DNA of 36,738 bases. It comes from Deltaproteobacteria bacterium. Lineage in GTDB: Bacteria > Myxococcota_A > Polyangia > JAAYKL01. Under the pieces are notes generated by a model. That model worked only from the letters and a program-made list of their open reading frames with translations. It made no database searches and was not told where the DNA came from. This document shows, piece by piece, positions 12,874-35,831 of the stretch (position 1 is the first letter of the stretch; each line of letters begins with the position of its first letter). Made by a program: the position numbers and the translations under genes. The DNA lies in NCBI GenBank assembly GCA_016935665.1, contig JAFGQN010000218.1:1-36738 (forward strand), given 5' to 3'.

Positions 12874-15177
12874 CTAAATCCCCACCGCAAATTGATTGCA
12901 TGTAGTGGCCAAAATGGACTGATGCAACTGCTCTGTGGCGGTGGCGCTGCCATGAATATGCTGCTCGAAAAGTAAAATGAGTTCTCTTTGGCTTTTGGCG
13001 ATTCGGGTCCGAGTGGGAATCCGTTTCAGATCTACCAGATATGACGAGAACACATTGGGCATTTCCAACGCCACAGATGTGTTCAGATAATGTCTGTCGA
13101 AATACAGGCGATGGTAATCCCCTTCGCGTTTCTCCACTAAAATGGAGACCCCTTTCATATTGACGATGGACGCAGATTTGCTGCACTCGGCAATGCATTG
13201 GGAACTCACTTCTGACTTTTCGCAGCCGGTCACCTGATGGAACAGACATTGTCTGCTGGTCATTAAGGGAATGGGGTGAAAAATGCTGTAGTGCAGCGCC
13301 ATATCCGCCACACGGGGAATGCTTTTTAGCTGTAAGTGATTCAGCTCATTGGATAGAAACGCGCCGTTGCAATTAAAATCCCTTTTCAAACATTCAAGCG
13401 CAAAGGAATTGGCAATGTTCATGTACGGCCCGGCGGTCCAGGGTATCCGCATCTCAAAAGCCATCTGTGCCAATCCCGAATTATTGGTGACAATATGCGT
13501 TGGACGCACTGTTCGAAGCAATGCCACTGCGGCAGCAAAGTCATCTCCAATAAGTATTTCCGGAAACCAGGGCGTGACCATTGGCCATTTTTTAAACAGC
13601 GCGGCATATGATTCCCAATTGGGTGCGAGTTGGTTTGGCAGTTCAAAATAAAAGTTCGCATCTGTTTCATCGCTCAGGAACAAATCCGAGGCGTCGCAAA
13701 TCAACACCGATAACTGCGGCGTAACCTCCTGGTCGTTCGCCCGTTGAATCTCCGGCAGTTCAACCGGCGCGACAGATGACAGGCTGCCGTTCAAACGATA
13801 CAGAATTTTTTCTTTTAACCGCACTATCTCTTCGTATCCAATACAAAGCCCCGTATCCAGACGGCTCATATTCACATCCGTTATCTGATACGCCGTTCCA
13901 TTGATGGCGCGCAATTTGTGCAAAAACAGTTTTTTATTCAGCTGGTTGTGGGCCTTTGGCACCGGTGAACCGTCGTCCGATGCCGTTCTTTGTGAACGAA
14001 ACAATGTCGTATCCGACAATACATTGAATGACTCCAAAGACGTATTCACCGTCATGCACAACGGCGCACCTTCTTTTCCGGACACATGGATTTCCAGTGG
14101 AACTTTGGCGACGCTCAACCTGGCCACCTTTTTTTTCACTTTTTCAATCAGCTTTTTTTTGCTGTCATTCACAATCTGGTTCACTTGCTTGATTTCTTTA
14201 TAGCGAACTGCGCCACTCTTTTTTAAAAAATACCTGGCCGAATTGTCTTTGGGATTATCGATGAACATATCCTTATGAATCACGCCATCTAAAAACCCGC
14301 TGGTGAAATCCCGATTGTATACGGTTCTTAGCGGTGTAACGCGCTCGCAAAGCTTTAAATCGCTGTACAATCGCCGCAACTGCTGTTGCCACAACCGCAC
14401 GACCCGGTACACATAATTCGATTGCTTGATGCGACCTTCAATTTTCAACGAATCAACCCCCGCGTCCCTAAGCTGAGGCACGTGCATAAAGGCCGTGTTG
14501 TCCTTGAGATTTAATGGGAATCGCCATCCCTGCGGTGTGGGCTCGTACTCTTCGCGACATGGCTGACTGCAGCGGCCACGATTGCCTGAGTTTCCATAAC
14601 ATACCGAGCTCATGTAACACAGGCCGGAAAAGGACAAACAGTTGGCGCCGTGTACAAACACTTCGGTTTCCATCCCCAACTGATGACTGATATTGGTCAA
14701 ATCCTTTATTTCTTCCATATTCAATTCTCTGCATAGATTGACACGAACGGTGGAAAGTGTGGCGAGAAACGCCAGTTGTCCCGCATTGTGGGTGGTCAGT
14801 TGGGTGGATGCGTGGACACGAATGCCCGGAAAGTGCGTTCGTATCAGATAGAGCAATCCAATGTCCTGCACAATAACGCCATCCAGCCGCATATTGGACA
14901 GTCGGTGAAGGATGCGAACGATACTCGAAAACTCGCTTTCAAGCAAAATGATATTCAGGGTTACAAAAATCTGACAATCGTGCTGGTGGGCCAGGTATAC
15001 CACTTGCGGCAAGTCGTCAATGGGCACATTTTTCGCGCGGTCTCTGGCGCTGAATTTTTCAAGACCGCAGTACACCGCATCCGCTCCGGCGAGAATCGCG
15101 GCTTTGATGGCGTCGATACCACCGCCCGGCGCCAGCAGCTCCATTTTTCGTGTGATTTTCAAATCGGACGTCGTCAT
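12874..15177 (-). CDS. U32-family protein, RlhA-like long form
   Basis: Product of 767 aa. The N-terminal U32 domain begins MELLAPGGGIDAIKAAILAG and has the family signature region EVFVHGANCLSFSGLCYMSS (about 172-191). Conserved cysteines are Cys180 and Cys187, with RGRCSQPC (Cys203, Cys207) following; they probably hold an iron-sulphur cluster. SLKIEGRIKQSNYVYRVV follows. The long C-terminal part matches the layout of RlhA (YdcP)-type members, which in E. coli are needed for hydroxylation of a 23S rRNA cytidine, rather than the short UbiU/UbiV forms. Assignment to RlhA is by length and layout only. It lies 53 bp downstream of the radical SAM gene on the same strand, so the two are probably co-transcribed. 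The start ATG lacks a clear ribosome binding site; Met12 is an alternative. Confidence 0.82.
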   Translation of the reverse strand: MTTSDLKITRKMELLAPGGGIDAIKAAILAGADAVYCGLEKFSARDRAKNVPIDDLPQVVYLAHQHDCQIFVTLNIILLESEFSSIVRILHRLSNMRLDGVIVQDIGLLYLIRTHFPGIRVHASTQLTTHNAGQLAFLATLSTVRVNLCRELNMEEIKDLTNISHQLGMETEVFVHGANCLSFSGLCYMSSVCYGNSGNRGRCSQPCREEYEPTPQGWRFPLNLKDNTAFMHVPQLRDAGVDSLKIEGRIKQSNYVYRVVRLWQQQLRRLYSDLKLCERVTPLRTVYNRDFTSGFLDGVIHKDMFIDNPKDNSARYFLKKSGAVRYKEIKQVNQIVNDSKKKLIEKVKKKVARLSVAKVPLEIHVSGKEGAPLCMTVNTSLESFNVLSDTTLFRSQRTASDDGSPVPKAHNQLNKKLFLHKLRAINGTAYQITDVNMSRLDTGLCIGYEEIVRLKEKILYRLNGSLSSVAPVELPEIQRANDQEVTPQLSVLICDASDLFLSDETDANFYFELPNQLAPNWESYAALFKKWPMVTPWFPEILIGDDFAAAVALLRTVRPTHIVTNNSGLAQMAFEMRIPWTAGPYMNIANSFALECLKRDFNCNGAFLSNELNHLQLKSIPRVADMALHYSIFHPIPLMTSRQCLFHQVTGCEKSEVSSQCIAECSKSASIVNMKGVSILVEKREGDYHRLYFDRHYLNTSVALEMPNVFSSYLVDLKRIPTRTRIAKSQRELILLFEQHIHGSATATEQLHQSILATTCNQFAVGI

Positions 15178-28615: not shown

Positions 28616-28689
28616 GCACCCATAGCTCAGCTGGATAGAGCATCGGTTTCCTAAACCGGGGGTCGCAGGTTCGAGTCCTGCTGGGTGCG
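28616..28689 (+). tRNA. tRNA-Arg (anticodon CCU)
   Basis: A complete cloverleaf can be drawn: 7-bp acceptor stem GCACCCA/TGGGTGC, D arm GCTC...GAGC, anticodon stem TCGGT/ACCGG with loop TTCCTAA (anticodon CCT, reads AGG), five-base variable loop GGGTC and T arm GCAGG-TTCGAGT-CCTGC. The discriminator base is G; CC follows but the A of CCA is not encoded. It marks the boundary between housekeeping-type genes and the accessory island to its right, a common integration target, although no duplicate of its 3' end was found in the window. Confidence 0.95.
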
Positions 28690-28693
28690 CCGT

Positions 28694-28994: not shown

Positions 28995-30050
28995 ATGACT
29001 CTTCAATCAAGCATAAATCAACTCTGTGATAAGTGGGGTCTGAATCTGGATCATATTGATCGGGCGCAGAAAGACTCCGATGAGACTGTTGTGGAGTTGG
29101 AAAAACGGCTTTGCGACATAAATCCGCGCAACGACACAAGTATTGTAGTATTTGGCTCTCTTGCCAGAGGTGAGTTTAGCGCGAAAAGTGATATTGATTG
29201 GACACTTTTAATTGACGGCGCTGCAGACAGCAACCACTTAGAGACTGTTTTGGAAATCGGAAGAATCGTTGATGAAGTCGCGGGTAAGTCACCGGGGCAG
29301 GAAGGCGTCTTCGGCAATTTAACGTTCAGCCACGAGTTGATTCATCTGATTGGTGGTCAGGATGATACCAACTTCAATACGACACAGCGCAATCTGCTGC
29401 TACTTGAATCGAAGGTTATTGGAGATTCGGCAGCGCACAAAAGAACGATACGAAATATTCTTAATCGATACATATTGGAAGATACGTCCTACGGCGATCA
29501 TTCAACATACGACCACGTACCTCGATTCCTTCTCAACGATTTTGCGAGATACTGGCGCACAATGGCGGTGGATTTTGCCTACAAACGCCGAAGACGACAA
29601 CAGGCAGGCGCTGCGTTGCGAAATATAAAACTTAGAATGTCTCGAAAGCTGTTGTATGTCACTGGATTGATTTCGTGTTTTGGATGCGAACTCGGGTTAT
29701 GTTTCAATACTGAGAATAAGAATTGTCCAGTGGAAAATTGCATTAGAGGAATGGAGCGCCTCATTTCGTTCTCTCCACTCGAGATATTGGCGCAAACGGT
29801 TTTGAAGATAAGCCCGGAACGACAAGATGTCCTTGCGGGACTTTTCGAGTCCTACAACGATTTTATCGGGCTATTGCAGGATAAAGACGCCCGCAACATT
29901 CTTAATAATTTGACTCCGGACCAGTATGCTGAGAATTCGGTATTTCAGGATGCCAGAAGAAACTCCCATCGATTTCGAGATGGCCTTGATCATTTGTTTT
30001 TTGAAGTTGAACCGCTTAAAACCCTGACGCGAAAATATGGTGTATTTTAA
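28995..30050 (+). CDS. Nucleotidyltransferase-fold protein (accessory island)
   Basis: Product of 351 aa. The DNA-polymerase-beta-type nucleotidyltransferase signature is clear: VFGSLARGEFSAKSDIDWTLLIDG, with Gly-Ser at 54-55 and the metal-binding acids Asp66 and Asp68. The third acidic residue cannot be placed with certainty. The remaining 230 residues are mostly helical and basic in the middle (YKRRRRQQAGAALRNIKLRM), perhaps for nucleic-acid or nucleotide binding, with an F-N-T-E-N-K-N-C-P-V-E-N-C stretch. It does not look like a typical AbiEii toxin, a CBASS cyclase of a class I know, or a two-domain tRNA enzyme. The ATG lacks a good ribosome binding site. Its stop TAA shares a base with the ATG of the next gene, so the two products are made together. 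Substrate unknown. Confidence 0.75.
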   Translation: MTLQSSINQLCDKWGLNLDHIDRAQKDSDETVVELEKRLCDINPRNDTSIVVFGSLARGEFSAKSDIDWTLLIDGAADSNHLETVLEIGRIVDEVAGKSPGQEGVFGNLTFSHELIHLIGGQDDTNFNTTQRNLLLLESKVIGDSAAHKRTIRNILNRYILEDTSYGDHSTYDHVPRFLLNDFARYWRTMAVDFAYKRRRRQQAGAALRNIKLRMSRKLLYVTGLISCFGCELGLCFNTENKNCPVENCIRGMERLISFSPLEILAQTVLKISPERQDVLAGLFESYNDFIGLLQDKDARNILNNLTPDQYAENSVFQDARRNSHRFRDGLDHLFFEVEPLKTLTRKYGVF

Positions 30051-30802
30051 TGAGAAAAATAGGTTTTTCAACGGGCGCATTGGCGCTATCGAATTTTGAA
30101 CTGGCTATTCAATATATGAAGGACGCACCGCTACAGTTTGATGCAGTGGAAATATCGGCGTTGCGCGTTCACGAACTGGCGCCGCTAATCGCCTGGCTGG
30201 AGCGGGTTGATTTCTGTCTCCCTTTTGGCAGTGTGGTGATTCATGCGCCAAGTGTCATGAACACGAAAGAGGAACTCGAAGTTGCTGATTTACTGCATAA
30301 GGTTCACGAAAGACAATTGCCAATTGTTCTACACGCCGATGCGTATCACAACGCCGCAATCTGGCGGCAATTTGATGATGGATTGCTGATTGAAAATATG
30401 GATAAGCGGAAACCCGGTGGTCGCACCGCAGATGAACTGGATATCGTTTTTGATGAATTGCCAGATGCCGCCCTTTGCTTTGATATTGGCCATGCCAGGC
30501 AAATAGACCCCACAATGATTGAAGCATCGGAAATACTCAAAAGGCATGGGCAACGTCTTAAGCAAATCCACCTCAGCGAAGTTACCTGTGGCAGCAAACA
30601 TGTTCCTTTGTCGTATACATCAATCGTTGCAGTTCGATCTATTGCTCAGTTAATACCAATCGATATCCCGATTATTCTGGAAGCGCAGGTTGAACCCACA
30701 CAAATGCTTTCGGAAGTCCAGCGCGCTGAAGAAGCATTGAATGCATTTTCAGAAACAGATGCGCAATGGCGCAATGCGATCCATGGACGGGTCGTCGCAT
30801 AG
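30050..30802 (+). CDS. AP-endonuclease-2-type TIM-barrel protein
   Basis: Product of 250 aa, a single TIM barrel of the xylose-isomerase-like/AP endonuclease 2 superfamily. Strand ends carry the expected metal ligands: His65 (VVIHAPS), His95 (IVLHADAY), Glu115 (LLIENMD), Asp145 and His148 (CFDIGHARQ), His174 (QIHLSEV), His184 and Glu211 (IILEAQV). This is the pattern of a di- or trimetal site as in endonuclease IV, so catalysis on a phosphate ester or sugar is likely. Which substrate (abasic DNA, sugar phosphate or a nucleotide product of its partner) is open. The ATG overlaps the stop of the nucleotidyltransferase gene by one base (TAATG). It converges with the AbiEi-like gene. Confidence 0.8.
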   Translation: MRKIGFSTGALALSNFELAIQYMKDAPLQFDAVEISALRVHELAPLIAWLERVDFCLPFGSVVIHAPSVMNTKEELEVADLLHKVHERQLPIVLHADAYHNAAIWRQFDDGLLIENMDKRKPGGRTADELDIVFDELPDAALCFDIGHARQIDPTMIEASEILKRHGQRLKQIHLSEVTCGSKHVPLSYTSIVAVRSIAQLIPIDIPIILEAQVEPTQMLSEVQRAEEALNAFSETDAQWRNAIHGRVVA

Positions 30803-30894: not shown

Positions 30895-31449
30895 TCACTG
30901 ACGTGCCTCCAATAGTTGTTTAAGTATTTCAAGTTCAGGGGCTGAAACCCTGCCCAGGTGCGCGGCGGTTTCGATGCTCTGGCGAATCAGGTGAGTAGGA
31001 ACGGCGCCACGGATTGCCTGTTCAATGGCTTTGGCTGGGGTCACAATTGGTATGCCTTCGTGCCAGCCTTTGTCTTTTTCATCCAGGTTCTCTTTATGGA
31101 GAACGTAGTTCTCGCCACCCTTGCGATTGACTCTGTATCCGGCCGGTACCACGATATGCACTTTTTCAGGGTTCACATCACATAGCGTATGCAGCTCCAA
31201 CGCCGTATCGTAACCCAGCACCCCATGCCGCGATGGCCACAACGTTGCCAGCATGTACGAATCAAGCTCTGTCGCCGGTATCTGCAAAAACCGATAAATC
31301 CCATGCCCCCGCCGTTCAATTTTCCCCGCCTGGTGCCATTGCCGAAGCCGCACCGGATCGGCATCCATATCACGCATATCATCAAACGTGATGAATCCAT
31401 ATTGATCCAACGCAACTTCAAAAGCTTGTTCCCATACTCGACCCGGCAT
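30895..31449 (-). CDS. AbiEi-family protein (type IV antitoxin/transcription factor), no toxin adjacent
   Basis: Product of 184 aa from the ATG at 31449. It has the AbiEi layout: an N-terminal winged-helix (FEVALDQYGFITFDDMRDM, RLRQWHQAGKIERRGHGIYRF), then IPATELDSYMLATLWPSRHGVLGYDTALELH, and a C-terminal part with HIVVPAGYRVNRK and IVTPAKAIEQAI. Members usually repress their own operon with an AbiEii nucleotidyltransferase toxin immediately downstream. Here nothing follows on the same strand, because the next gene converges. The start codon touches a perfect inverted repeat. It is divergent from the Gabija-like pair, so it may act as a regulator. An upstream in-frame extension to 31593 lacks family character. 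Confidence 0.82.
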   Translation of the reverse strand: MPGRVWEQAFEVALDQYGFITFDDMRDMDADPVRLRQWHQAGKIERRGHGIYRFLQIPATELDSYMLATLWPSRHGVLGYDTALELHTLCDVNPEKVHIVVPAGYRVNRKGGENYVLHKENLDEKDKGWHEGIPIVTPAKAIEQAIRGAVPTHLIRQSIETAAHLGRVSAPELEILKQLLEARQ

Positions 31450-31482
31450 GCAAATACCGTATGAAAAAAATACGGTATTTGC
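31450..31482 (-). promoter_or_regulatory. 12-bp perfect inverted repeat touching the AbiEi start codon
   Basis: GCAAATACCGTA and TACGGTATTTGC are separated by nine bases. The repeat ends exactly at the ATG of the AbiEi-like gene. It is a likely operator for autoregulation; as RNA it would form a hairpin against the start codon. A possible -35-like TTGCAA overlaps its far arm, which would make the transcript nearly leaderless. Confidence 0.6.
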
Positions 31483-31573
31483 AAGTTTTTGGTTTTGAGA
31501 ATGTTGAAAATCGTTGGGATTTCGTAACAGCCAGCGATACGTTCCACCAATTCCAGACAACTTTCCACAATAA

Positions 31574-31658: not shown

Positions 31659-33380
31659 ATGCCTGCGATCCGTCACCTGATAATCAGAAATTTTCGCGCG
31701 ATAAAAGAGTTCATGTGGTACCCAAATCCCGGACTGAACTGTTTAATCGGGCCAGGAGACTCTGGGAAATCAACAGTTTTGGACGCCATAGATGTTGTTT
31801 TGGGCGCAAGACGTTCAATCACGTTCAATGATGCTGATTTTAACTGTGGCAACATTTCTCAGCCGATTGAAATACTTGCAACAATAGGGGCACTGGAAGA
31901 CGAACTACAGAATTTTGAATACTACGGAAATGTTCTTCGGGGATTCAATTTACAGGACAGGACAATATTCGATGAACCTCAGCATGGTTTGGAGACGGTT
32001 TTAACTGTACGGCTCCGAGTAGGTGCGGATTTGGAACCTGATTGGACGCTTTTCTCCGAACGCTCAGATACAGCAGGACAAGAATATCGATTGAAATGGA
32101 AACATCGTATAATTGTTTCCCCAAACCGTTTAGGGGTGATGTCATACAATCATCTAACTTGGGGGTCTGGTTCTGTATTGCCGCGACTTTCAACTGACGG
32201 CATTGAGACTGGAGAGACCTTAGCTGCCGTGAGCCGCATTGCGCGAAGTGCTTTCCCTTCGCCTGTCCCTCCAAACATTCAGGAAACAATTAATAAGGTT
32301 CAAAGTGTTGCGGACGACATGGCAGTTGCTGCTCATGGGGTAAAGGCGGCTTTGGATCCCAAAGCCGTTGCGTTATCAAATGGCGCGATTAGCTTACATG
32401 ATAACAACGGTACACCTCTTCGTCAGTTAGGAACCGGTTCGACTCGTCTACTTGTAAGTGGTCTGCAGAAATTGGCTTCGGAATCATCCATGCTGTTAGT
32501 TGATGAGGCAGAGTACGGTCTTGAGCCATTCAGAATTTCAAAATTTTTACATGAACTTGGCGCAAAAAATGTGCATTCAGGTAAGCAGGTGTTCATTACA
32601 ACGCATTCGCCCCATGTATTGCGAGAACTTCAAGTACATCAACTGCATGTTCTTCGCAAAGCAGAAGTGCCCTTTGAGCCGCCGTGGAGTCAATACTCTC
32701 ACTGGGCATACACGGCCAATGCCAATGATAGTCAAGCGCAAGCAACACTGCGCGCATGCGCCGAAGCATTCTTTTCAAAAAAAGTTATTGTGGCCGAAGG
32801 AAAGACGGAGATTGGATTGGTGCGCGGCATTGACATGTTCGAAGAGTCGCAGAATCGACAAAGTTTGCTTTCGAACGGTGCATTTTGTGCCGACGGTGGA
32901 GGGTCAAAGTTGTTTGAACGAGCGATGGTTTTTGCCCAATTTGGTTATCCAACGGCTATATTTAAAGATTCTGACATATCAACGCAGCATACCAATTCCA
33001 CAGCGCTGGCAACGAAGCAGGGGATTCAAATAATAGAGTGGGGTCATGGTTGGGCAACCGAAGAGGCTTTGTTTAATTGCTGTCCGGAGTCGTTGATTTT
33101 AGAGCTTTTGGATTTGGCTGTAGACCGTAACTCGGCGGACGCAATTGACACACATATTCGCAATTCATCAAACCACAGTTACGACTTGAATAAATGCAAA
33201 GCGAGTTTTGAAGAGCCGATGCGAGGTTGTCTTGCGTCAAGCGCTAAAAAGTACGGTTGGTACAAAGATATTGAACCTGCAGAATATATAGCCCTCAATG
33301 TCATTGGACCAAACCGGAATACCTTCAAAAAAGAATTGATCGCTGTGATTGATAGTTTGTTTCAATGGGCAAAATCATAA
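31659..33380 (+). CDS. gajA: Gabija-like GajA: OLD-family ATPase/TOPRIM nuclease
   Basis: Product of 573 aa, close to the known GajA length (about 578). GAGG lies five bases before the ATG. The N-terminal ABC-type ATPase has Walker A GPGDSGKST (31-39), a degenerate signature LGTGSTRLL (257-265), Walker B SMLLVDEAEYGLEP (277-290) and the switch His in FITTHSP. The C-terminal TOPRIM domain has the catalytic Glu in VIVAEGKTE (Glu380) and the D-x-D pair in AIFKDSD (437-439). GajA nicks DNA at preferred sequences and is held inactive by nucleotides until phage activity depletes them (known for B. cereus Gabija). The gajB-like gene follows after nine bases. OLD-type nucleases also pair with other partners, so the name rests on the combination. 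Confidence 0.85.
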   Translation: MPAIRHLIIRNFRAIKEFMWYPNPGLNCLIGPGDSGKSTVLDAIDVVLGARRSITFNDADFNCGNISQPIEILATIGALEDELQNFEYYGNVLRGFNLQDRTIFDEPQHGLETVLTVRLRVGADLEPDWTLFSERSDTAGQEYRLKWKHRIIVSPNRLGVMSYNHLTWGSGSVLPRLSTDGIETGETLAAVSRIARSAFPSPVPPNIQETINKVQSVADDMAVAAHGVKAALDPKAVALSNGAISLHDNNGTPLRQLGTGSTRLLVSGLQKLASESSMLLVDEAEYGLEPFRISKFLHELGAKNVHSGKQVFITTHSPHVLRELQVHQLHVLRKAEVPFEPPWSQYSHWAYTANANDSQAQATLRACAEAFFSKKVIVAEGKTEIGLVRGIDMFEESQNRQSLLSNGAFCADGGGSKLFERAMVFAQFGYPTAIFKDSDISTQHTNSTALATKQGIQIIEWGHGWATEEALFNCCPESLILELLDLAVDRNSADAIDTHIRNSSNHSYDLNKCKASFEEPMRGCLASSAKKYGWYKDIEPAEYIALNVIGPNRNTFKKELIAVIDSLFQWAKS

Positions 33381-33389
33381 GGGGACGAT

Positions 33390-34814
33390 GTGCCAGTTGA
33401 TGCTGTTTTAAAAACTTGGCGTGGTTCTGTGGTTGCTCCTGCAGGTTGTGGTAAGACTCATCTGATTACCGAAATCGCCAAACGTGCTGATGGTGGTAAG
33501 CCCTTTTTAGTATTGACGCATACGACTGCCGGTGTGGCTTCGCTAAAGAAAAAACTGCACAAGTATAACGTCCCTAACGCAAACATTTCTGTGTCTACAA
33601 TTGACGGATGGGCGATGAGTGTCGCAAAGAAGTTCCCCCATGGGTGTCCTCTGAAGGCATCGCCAACGAACACGCAAATTTTTTACCCCGAACTGAGAAA
33701 TGTTGTTAGCAAATTCTTACAAGGGGGGCATATCGACGGAATTATTCGATCGACCTATTCACGACTATTGGTCGATGAATACCAAGACACAGGTTTAGAA
33801 CAACACAGCATAGTTCTATGTCTCTCGAATTTATTGCCAACAACGGTTTTCGGAGATCCAATGCAATCAATTTTTGATTTTGGCGGCCCTCTCCCCAGCT
33901 GGAATGAAGTCCAAAGTGTGTTTCCAGAGGTGTTGGCTCTAAATACTCCGTGGCGGTGGAACAACGCTGGACAATGTGGTTTAGGAAATTGGATTCTGAA
34001 TGTTCGTGCGGAATTAGAGAATCGGCGTTCAATCAATCTACAGACTTGTCCCAATAATGTCTTCTGGTATCCTCTTTCCGGGAGCGAGCGGGATGATTTG
34101 ACGAATCAAACCAAAGTTCTATTTGACTTGCGAATTAAGGGTTCCGAGACTGATTCCATTTTGGTTATTGGCTCCTCAATGGAAGCAAATACAAGGCACA
34201 AATTCGCGAGAAACTCCAGAGGGGTACATGTTGTCGAACCGGTCGATTTAAAAGACATGATCGCAGCTTCAAAACGACTGGACGGTATTTTAGGTCGTGA
34301 ACTTGTGGAATGTACACTGGATATCGCTTCTAAATTGATGACAGGTACTGAAAAGAAAAAAGTGATGACTCGTCTTGATACCATTCTGGCAGGAAGGCAC
34401 AGGGCTGAGCCGACGGCGGTCGAAATCGTGGCCTGCGCTGTTGTCAGACAGTCCTGCCGCAAATCTTTGCTGGAGCTATGGGAGACTCTGGCGAAGAAAG
34501 AAGGTGTGAGATTGTATAGAGGCCCTGTCTATTCTGCTTTTAAGGAAACATTGAGGCTGGCTGCCAGCGATGGACAAAAAAGCATTGAAGAATGTGCATC
34601 GATCGTTAGAGAACGGCGAAGGCACTACGGCGACCGTCGAATCCCGCAATTTGCTGTTGGCTCAACTCTCCTTTTAAAAGGATTGGAGGCAGATCATGTA
34701 TTGATCCTTAATGCTGATGAAATGAATAGGAAACATCTTTATGTGGCTTTGTCCAGAGGGGCAAAGAGCGTGACGGTGTTTTCTCGGACTGCGGTAGTTG
34801 GCGTGCAAATGTGA
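33390..34814 (+). CDS. gajB: Gabija-like GajB: UvrD/Rep-type superfamily 1 helicase
   Basis: Product of 474 aa (known GajB about 494). AAGGGGA lies shortly before a GTG start at 33390, nine bases after the gajA stop. Motif I is VAPAGCGKTHL (Walker A, 16-23); motif II is LLVDEYQDTG (Walker B), motif III VFGDPMQSIFDF, and PWRW is the motif IV-region Arg. Near the C-terminus, VGSTLLLKGLEADHVLI and HLYVALSRGAKSV are motifs V and VI. The large 1B/2B insertions of full-length UvrD are absent, as in GajB. GajB is thought to sense DNA ends or single-stranded termini and activate GajA in one complex. All helicase motifs look intact. Confidence 0.85.
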   Translation: MPVDAVLKTWRGSVVAPAGCGKTHLITEIAKRADGGKPFLVLTHTTAGVASLKKKLHKYNVPNANISVSTIDGWAMSVAKKFPHGCPLKASPTNTQIFYPELRNVVSKFLQGGHIDGIIRSTYSRLLVDEYQDTGLEQHSIVLCLSNLLPTTVFGDPMQSIFDFGGPLPSWNEVQSVFPEVLALNTPWRWNNAGQCGLGNWILNVRAELENRRSINLQTCPNNVFWYPLSGSERDDLTNQTKVLFDLRIKGSETDSILVIGSSMEANTRHKFARNSRGVHVVEPVDLKDMIAASKRLDGILGRELVECTLDIASKLMTGTEKKKVMTRLDTILAGRHRAEPTAVEIVACAVVRQSCRKSLLELWETLAKKEGVRLYRGPVYSAFKETLRLAASDGQKSIEECASIVRERRRHYGDRRIPQFAVGSTLLLKGLEADHVLILNADEMNRKHLYVALSRGAKSVTVFSRTAVVGVQM

Positions 34815-35069: not shown

Positions 35070-35831
35070 TCATCTGCATATACCCCCGTTACATTGCCTT
35101 GATATGCAATCGGCATTGTTGCCACATGGCTGACCGGCGGGACGACGCGGTGCACAAACATTGCCAATACAGGCATTGATGCATTGACCGTCTCGGTCAC
35201 ATGGTGCTCCATCCTCGCCATTTGCCGTTACGCATACATTGTCATTTCGACAACGTTGGCCATCGGCGCACTGAGAGTCTGCATTGCATCCACATACACC
35301 ACCGTTGCACAAACGTGATACGCAGTCTGCATTGTTGCCGCAAGATTGCCCCGGAGCACGCCTTGGTGCACAAACGTTGCCAATACAGGCGTTAATGCAC
35401 TGGCCGTCCCGATCGCATGGTGCTCCATCCTCGCCATTTGCCGTTACACAGACATTGTCACTTCGACAACGTTGACCTGTGCGACAATGGGAATCGACGC
35501 GACAAAAACCACACTGATTCTCAACACAGTTTTTTCCTGTTGGACAATCTCGGTTTTGAGTACATTCCACCCATTGACAACCAAGACGGCTGCAAATAGA
35601 TGAGTTAGAAAGGCTGCTACAGGTAAACTTCCCGTTACAATAGAAACCACCTCCATCAGTAAATTCTGGTGTGCAGGGTTTAACACAGTCTTTTAAATCG
35701 GTGATAATTTGTGACGAACAAGACCTTTGCCCTTCGCCGATGCATTTTCCAGTTCCGCCATTGCATTTGCCTGCGCTAATAAAAACAAACGTCAATAGCA
35801 TGACAACAAAATACTGATTTTTTTTCATCAT
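35070..35831 (-). CDS. Secreted Cys-rich protein with internal duplication
   Basis: Product of 253 aa from the first of two tandem ATGs at 35831, with AAAGGAAG upstream. A signal peptide (YFVVMLLTFVFISAGKC) is followed directly by Cys-rich sequence; the Cys after SAGK could be a weak lipobox. Cysteines recur in the pattern of Dickkopf-type or myxococcal small Cys domains: NRDCPTGKNCVENQCGFC, SHCRTGQRC and CGNNADC. Two nearly identical 72-residue units (CVTANGEDGAPCDRDGQC, CIGNVCAPRR, GGVC or GGIC) follow each other at the C-terminus. Function unknown; likely extracellular and disulphide-bonded. It is the only gene of this surface-protein style in the island. Confidence 0.8.
   Translation of the reverse strand: MMKKNQYFVVMLLTFVFISAGKCNGGTGKCIGEGQRSCSSQIITDLKDCVKPCTPEFTDGGGFYCNGKFTCSSLSNSSICSRLGCQWVECTQNRDCPTGKNCVENQCGFCRVDSHCRTGQRCRSDNVCVTANGEDGAPCDRDGQCINACIGNVCAPRRAPGQSCGNNADCVSRLCNGGVCGCNADSQCADGQRCRNDNVCVTANGEDGAPCDRDGQCINACIGNVCAPRRPAGQPCGNNADCISRQCNGGICR
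35074..35471 (-). repeat. Two tandem copies of a 216-bp unit in the Cys-rich gene
   Basis: The copies are offset by exactly 216 bp (for example TTTGCCGTTA at 35221 and 35437 on the plus strand). They are most alike around the segments encoding GEDGAPCDRDGQCIN. Silent and a few coding differences show that the duplication is not brand new. Confidence 0.85.

Follow-up and report, generated by a model that had tools for sequence, protein, structure and literature searches.

Gabija is one of the common systems by which bacteria defend themselves against viruses. In the Gabija of Bacillus cereus VD045 (PDB 8sm3, 8jqb and others), GajA forms a tetramer with docked GajB, and the TOPRIM residues of GajA have been named as E379, D432 and D434 (PMC10781630). 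The substitution E379A abolishes the nuclease activity of B. cereus GajA, and as long as nucleotides stay at their normal levels the Gabija nuclease is silent (PMC8136825). B. cereus GajB lacks several UvrD elements, and unwinding by this protein was not detected (PMC10681800). In Pseudomonas aeruginosa, Gabija targets linear DNA ends in the absence of RecBCD and prevents circularization, and defence by the PA14 system requires both genes and their active sites (PMC12407980). The published models of the Gabija trigger are in disagreement.

The window, by which we mean the whole stretch of 36,738 nucleotides analysed here, carries on its forward strand a gene pair with the same order and domain composition as the B. 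cereus system. The first gene, gajA (31659-33380), encodes an OLD-family ABC-type ATPase joined to a TOPRIM nuclease with the characteristic glutamate and DxD motif, and the second, gajB (33390-34814), encodes an SF1A UvrD/Rep-like helicase with a DEXQD box. Translation starts are ATG in gajA and GTG in gajB, and both frames are unbroken. The sequence leaves a gap of nine bases (33381-33389, forward strand) between the gajA stop and the gajB start, and a Shine-Dalgarno-like AAGGGG (33379-33384, forward strand), beginning at the end of the gajA stop codon, precedes the GTG. The products of 573 and 474 amino acids are similar in size to their B. cereus counterparts of 578 and 494 amino acids. 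The first-pass annotation had described an OLD-type ATPase/TOPRIM protein and a UvrD-like helicase with these coordinates, lengths and spacing, all of which are confirmed; its further assertion that such lengths define Gabija is refuted by the tested system of Providencia stuartii, whose GajA has 736 amino acids (PMC12935923). On account of this length, the P. stuartii system probably falls outside the lineage described here.

We conclude that gajA and gajB almost certainly constitute a complete Gabija (class 2 OLD) anti-phage system, as predicted from the genes, profiles, folds and catalytic residues. A profile search of the kind proposed in the first-pass annotation, run in PADLOC, returned GajA and GajB families as the best matches, end to end and far above other OLD or helicase models. 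The nuclease matches PDLC04168 with 666.5 bits (E 9e-201; residues 1-572 on profile positions 1-568 of 570), and the helicase matches PDLC04173 with 541.4 bits (E 5e-163; residues 5-470 on positions 5-467 of 471). PADLOC models of GajA score 666, 438 and 173 bits on the nuclease, against 100 bits for the best non-GajA model, ‘Old’. Above the Pfam cut-offs we find AAA_21, AAA_15 and OLD-like_TOPRIM in GajA, that is, an ATPase joined to TOPRIM, and UvrD-helicase in GajB; no NCBIfam model reaches its cut-off for either protein.

The Walker, TOPRIM and helicase motifs are intact, as had been noticed from the sequence alone, with little or no variation at these positions among 98 GajA and 93 GajB homologues (98-99 and 94 rows in the alignments). 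In GajA, the Walker A motif GPGDSGKS (residues 31-38; 31749-31772, forward strand) has G31, G33, D34 and K37 invariant in 98 rows; the Walker B region reads LLVDEAEYGLEP and the H-switch THSP. The TOPRIM glutamate E380 (32796-32798, forward strand), which phmmer aligns to B. cereus E379, is invariant in 99 rows, and the DxD motif D437-S-D439, within KDSD (32967-32975, forward strand), is aligned by phmmer to B. cereus D432 and D434, with D437 kept in 99 of 99 rows and D439 in 98 of 99. TOPRIM also has G414/G415, and the conserved C-terminal lysine K536 (33264-33266, forward strand), found in 98 of 99 rows, is a candidate equivalent of B. cereus K541. Together with Walker A, the invariant or near-invariant positions comprise D282/E283, H316, E380, G415, D437, D439, E468 and K536. 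Judged by this alignment, the predicted nuclease has a complete TOPRIM active site (E, DxD). In GajB, the motifs and the homologue alignment agree on Walker A APAGCGKT (residues 16-23; 33435-33458, forward strand) and on motif VI LYVALSRGA with R456 (34737-34763, forward strand). The DEXQD box DEYQD (residues 129-133; 33774-33788, forward strand) has D129, E130, Q132 and D133 invariant in 94 rows. Further helicase motifs read LTHTTAGV, VDEYQD, GDPMQ, PWRW and STLLLKGLEAD, and the positions that are invariant or nearly so among the GajB homologues are Walker A, DEYQD, D156, Q159, R189, G431, E433 and R456.

As an ordinary, intact Gabija operon, the pair represents a known kind of system, and its lineage is widespread. 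The closest resemblance is to the PDLC04168/PDLC04173 lineage carried on Providencia, Klebsiella and Vibrio plasmids, with which it shares gene order, tight spacing, motifs and end-to-end profile match. Searching plasmid records with tblastn, we detected the nuclease in 314, in 294 of them over at least 80% of its length, foremost in Klebsiella (189) and Providencia (22). Identity in the best places is 52-54%, the Providencia plasmid copies standing at 53.5%; the helicase displays the same plasmid spread, with about 47-52% identity. Scans with alignment queries retrieved 451 GajA relatives in genome contigs, 80 of which were kept, and relatives at seven distinct loci in viral contigs (IMG/VR), while single-protein scans of the same genome and viral contigs gave zero matches; this GajA was not present in any phage record. 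Across 101 related loci, drawn from several phyla, gajA has a GajB homologue as its neighbour in 100, and the remaining locus is cut by the end of its contig; the median overlap of the two genes in these loci is 11 bases by mechanical calls of open reading frames. On a Bradyrhizobium plasmid (L053, 5839-6787), an IS630 transposase gene lies between gajA and gajB, an insertion that probably breaks the operon.

Relatedness to the solved systems is far more distant. In single-sequence phmmer searches of the PDB, B. cereus GajA is the top match for the nuclease (E 5e-5) and GajB the top match for the helicase (E 4e-3), and the weakness of these matches indicates that the branch is far from the solved one; in structural alignment, GajA shares only about 16-17% identity with its B. 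cereus counterpart. The Gabija of P. aeruginosa PA14 (PAPI-1) consists of the same gene pair, but its reported helicase box is DESQ as opposed to the DEYQ of nearly every member of our lineage, and by this box, rather than by sequence comparison, it probably represents another lineage. We found no published test of any member of the lineage in the literature searched. Since the lineage is at once common, being carried on many Klebsiella and Providencia plasmids, and remote in sequence from the B. cereus Gabija on which the biochemistry has been done, testing one member would show how far the model based on B. cereus carries over.

Does the system extend beyond these two genes? To the left of gajA and divergent from it lies an AbiEi-type gene (30898-31449, minus strand; PADLOC AbiEi, 188 bits), and a perfect 14-pair palindrome (31449-31483) is found at its start, about 175 bases from gajA. 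The divergent arrangement and the position of the palindrome would fit a three-part unit in which AbiEi controls gajAB through this element. Such a unit is nevertheless improbable, as among about 100 related loci only 1 showed an AbiEi homologue in the vicinity of gajA. The palindrome recurs once more in the genome with three changes, on C37 (locus L035), where it adjoins a shortened, decayed remnant of the same AbiEi start and where no Gabija gene is seen. That the second copy accompanies a decayed AbiEi start without Gabija indicates that the palindrome belongs to AbiEi, for which it most likely serves as the operator. As a component of Gabija, AbiEi was therefore rejected, since it is not a regular companion of this lineage. 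The gene is an orphan regulator outside the Gabija system; no AbiEii partner lies beside it, and on C141 an AbiEi gene is followed directly by a gene that, judged by eye, is AbiEii-like.

Another possibility is that the nuclease is a class 1 OLD protein that happens to stand beside an unrelated UvrD-like helicase. The fold lends it some plausibility. The AlphaFold model of GajA (pLDDT 87.9) is matched over its whole length by OLD and GajA structures, with Z 20.3 (rmsd 5.5, 427 residues) for the class 1 OLD of Thermus scotoductus (PDB 6p74), which shares the ATPase-TOPRIM fold, and Z 19.9 (rmsd 4.1, 422 residues) for B. cereus GajA, values that count as a tie. The lineage profile searched against the PDB is likewise tied between the two (E 3e-13 and E 5e-13, respectively). 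The model displays several helices after residue 460, a candidate region for the additional helices by which the class 2 TOPRIM would differ from that of class 1. Class was not assigned from fold alone: with class 1 OLD and GajA tied by this measure, the decision falls to the partner helicase and to the models of the families. Both argue strongly against class 1. The Thermus protein is of the single-gene type, standing alone with no helicase partner, whereas here gajB is adjacent, encodes a dedicated GajB-family protein (541 bits) and keeps its place beside gajA in nearly all related loci; the ‘Old’ model, moreover, reaches only 100 bits against 666 for GajA. Chance juxtaposition with a class 1 nuclease is therefore very improbable. 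An effector of a retron (class 3 OLD) or of PARIS is the least credible reading of all: parts of GajA are matched by the Retron-Eco8 and AriA models, but weakly (37 bits where the cut-off is 250, and 64 bits, respectively), no retron RNA family reaches threshold within the window, and no neighbouring gene matches a reverse transcriptase or AriB model.

In the Gabija pair as we read it, the helicase raises a question of its own. With the lineage profile, GajB is again the top PDB match (E 1.4e-11), while the AlphaFold model (pLDDT 94.7) is nearer to Rep and UvrD than to the B. cereus GajB structures, with Z 27.2, rmsd 3.4 and 336 residues for Rep. Foldseek places B. cereus GajB 25th, and the 50 VIA-align matches listed do not include it. 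We do not regard this low structural rank as evidence against family membership, on which it bears weakly. The better fit to Rep and UvrD is what raises the prospect that GajB of this lineage, unlike that of B. cereus, might act as a true DNA translocase or helicase; we consider this rather unlikely, and the fit could equally well come from a difference in domain angle in the crystal. If it did hold, this branch of Gabija would use a different step, such as translocation from DNA ends.

How might the system work? We infer its assembly, its triggering and the cleavage step from the Gabija systems studied elsewhere. By analogy with B. cereus, GajA would probably assemble into a tetramer, on which GajB, an SF1A helicase-like ATPase, would dock to give a 4:4 complex. 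In the uninfected cell, the nuclease might be held off by high nucleotide levels or by the host RecBCD acting on DNA ends. Infection could then lower the nucleotides, or present linear DNA ends without RecBCD, whereupon the complex would act on phage DNA.

What could be the origin of this copy? In the maximum-likelihood tree, the window GajA falls inside a set of 17 rows from Gammaproteobacteria and plasmids with support of 100/99, its position within the set being unsettled (87/70). The host's own phylum, sampled with 377 genomes, yields four matches at E 1e-30 or better, the window's own genome included, and the two good copies among them are only 30-35% identical and lie outside the 17-row set; in contrast to the plasmid copies, the relatives found within the host phylum are distant. 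The contig itself can be ascribed to the host lineage because its U32 peptidase (12877-15177) is 66% and 56% identical to those of same-genus genomes. Since the nearest relatives are gammaproteobacterial or plasmid-borne (52-54%) and the copies of the host's own phylum are remote, it is likely that a Gabija lineage with its centre in Gammaproteobacteria and their plasmids entered this host, a member of another phylum, through horizontal transfer, which is the simplest reading of the GajA tree and identities. The locus would then document, besides a supported defence function for gajA and gajB, a probable transfer of gammaproteobacterial-type Gabija across phyla.

The surroundings of the operon were thought in the first-pass annotation to form an island to which Gabija gives a concrete function. 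The defence role is supported for gajA and gajB themselves; for the island the statement is only partly right, as the stretch also contains the orphan AbiEi and a further candidate defence pair, and no island boundary was found. G+C drops from about 0.59 to 0.45 to the right of tRNA-Arg (CCT; 28616-28691), but no repeat of the tRNA-Arg end is present between 28500 and the contig end at 36738, and none of the genes from the tRNA rightward to that point could be recognised as an integrase. With the fall in G+C on one side, and the lack of an att repeat or integrase and the end of the contig on the other, a genomic island at this place is plausible only as a candidate. The further pair, PDC-M70A/B (28995-30802; PADLOC), lies to the left of AbiEi and is also present in other genomes of the host phylum. 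PDC-M70A is a nucleotidyltransferase, with similar genes in ten of the genera sampled from the phylum, the host's own included; PDC-M70B weakly resembles CbiR/IolE-type proteins, and at L036 the M70B part lies within an open reading frame of 784 amino acids. Of two flanking genes, the rubrerythrin-like one is matched once, and partially, within the family, the cysteine-rich one not at all. The latter (35073-35831) encodes a cysteine-rich repeat protein that looks secreted and contains an internal duplication, the 194-nucleotide repeats being 80% alike, and weakly matches the Myxo_Cys_RPT repeat model.
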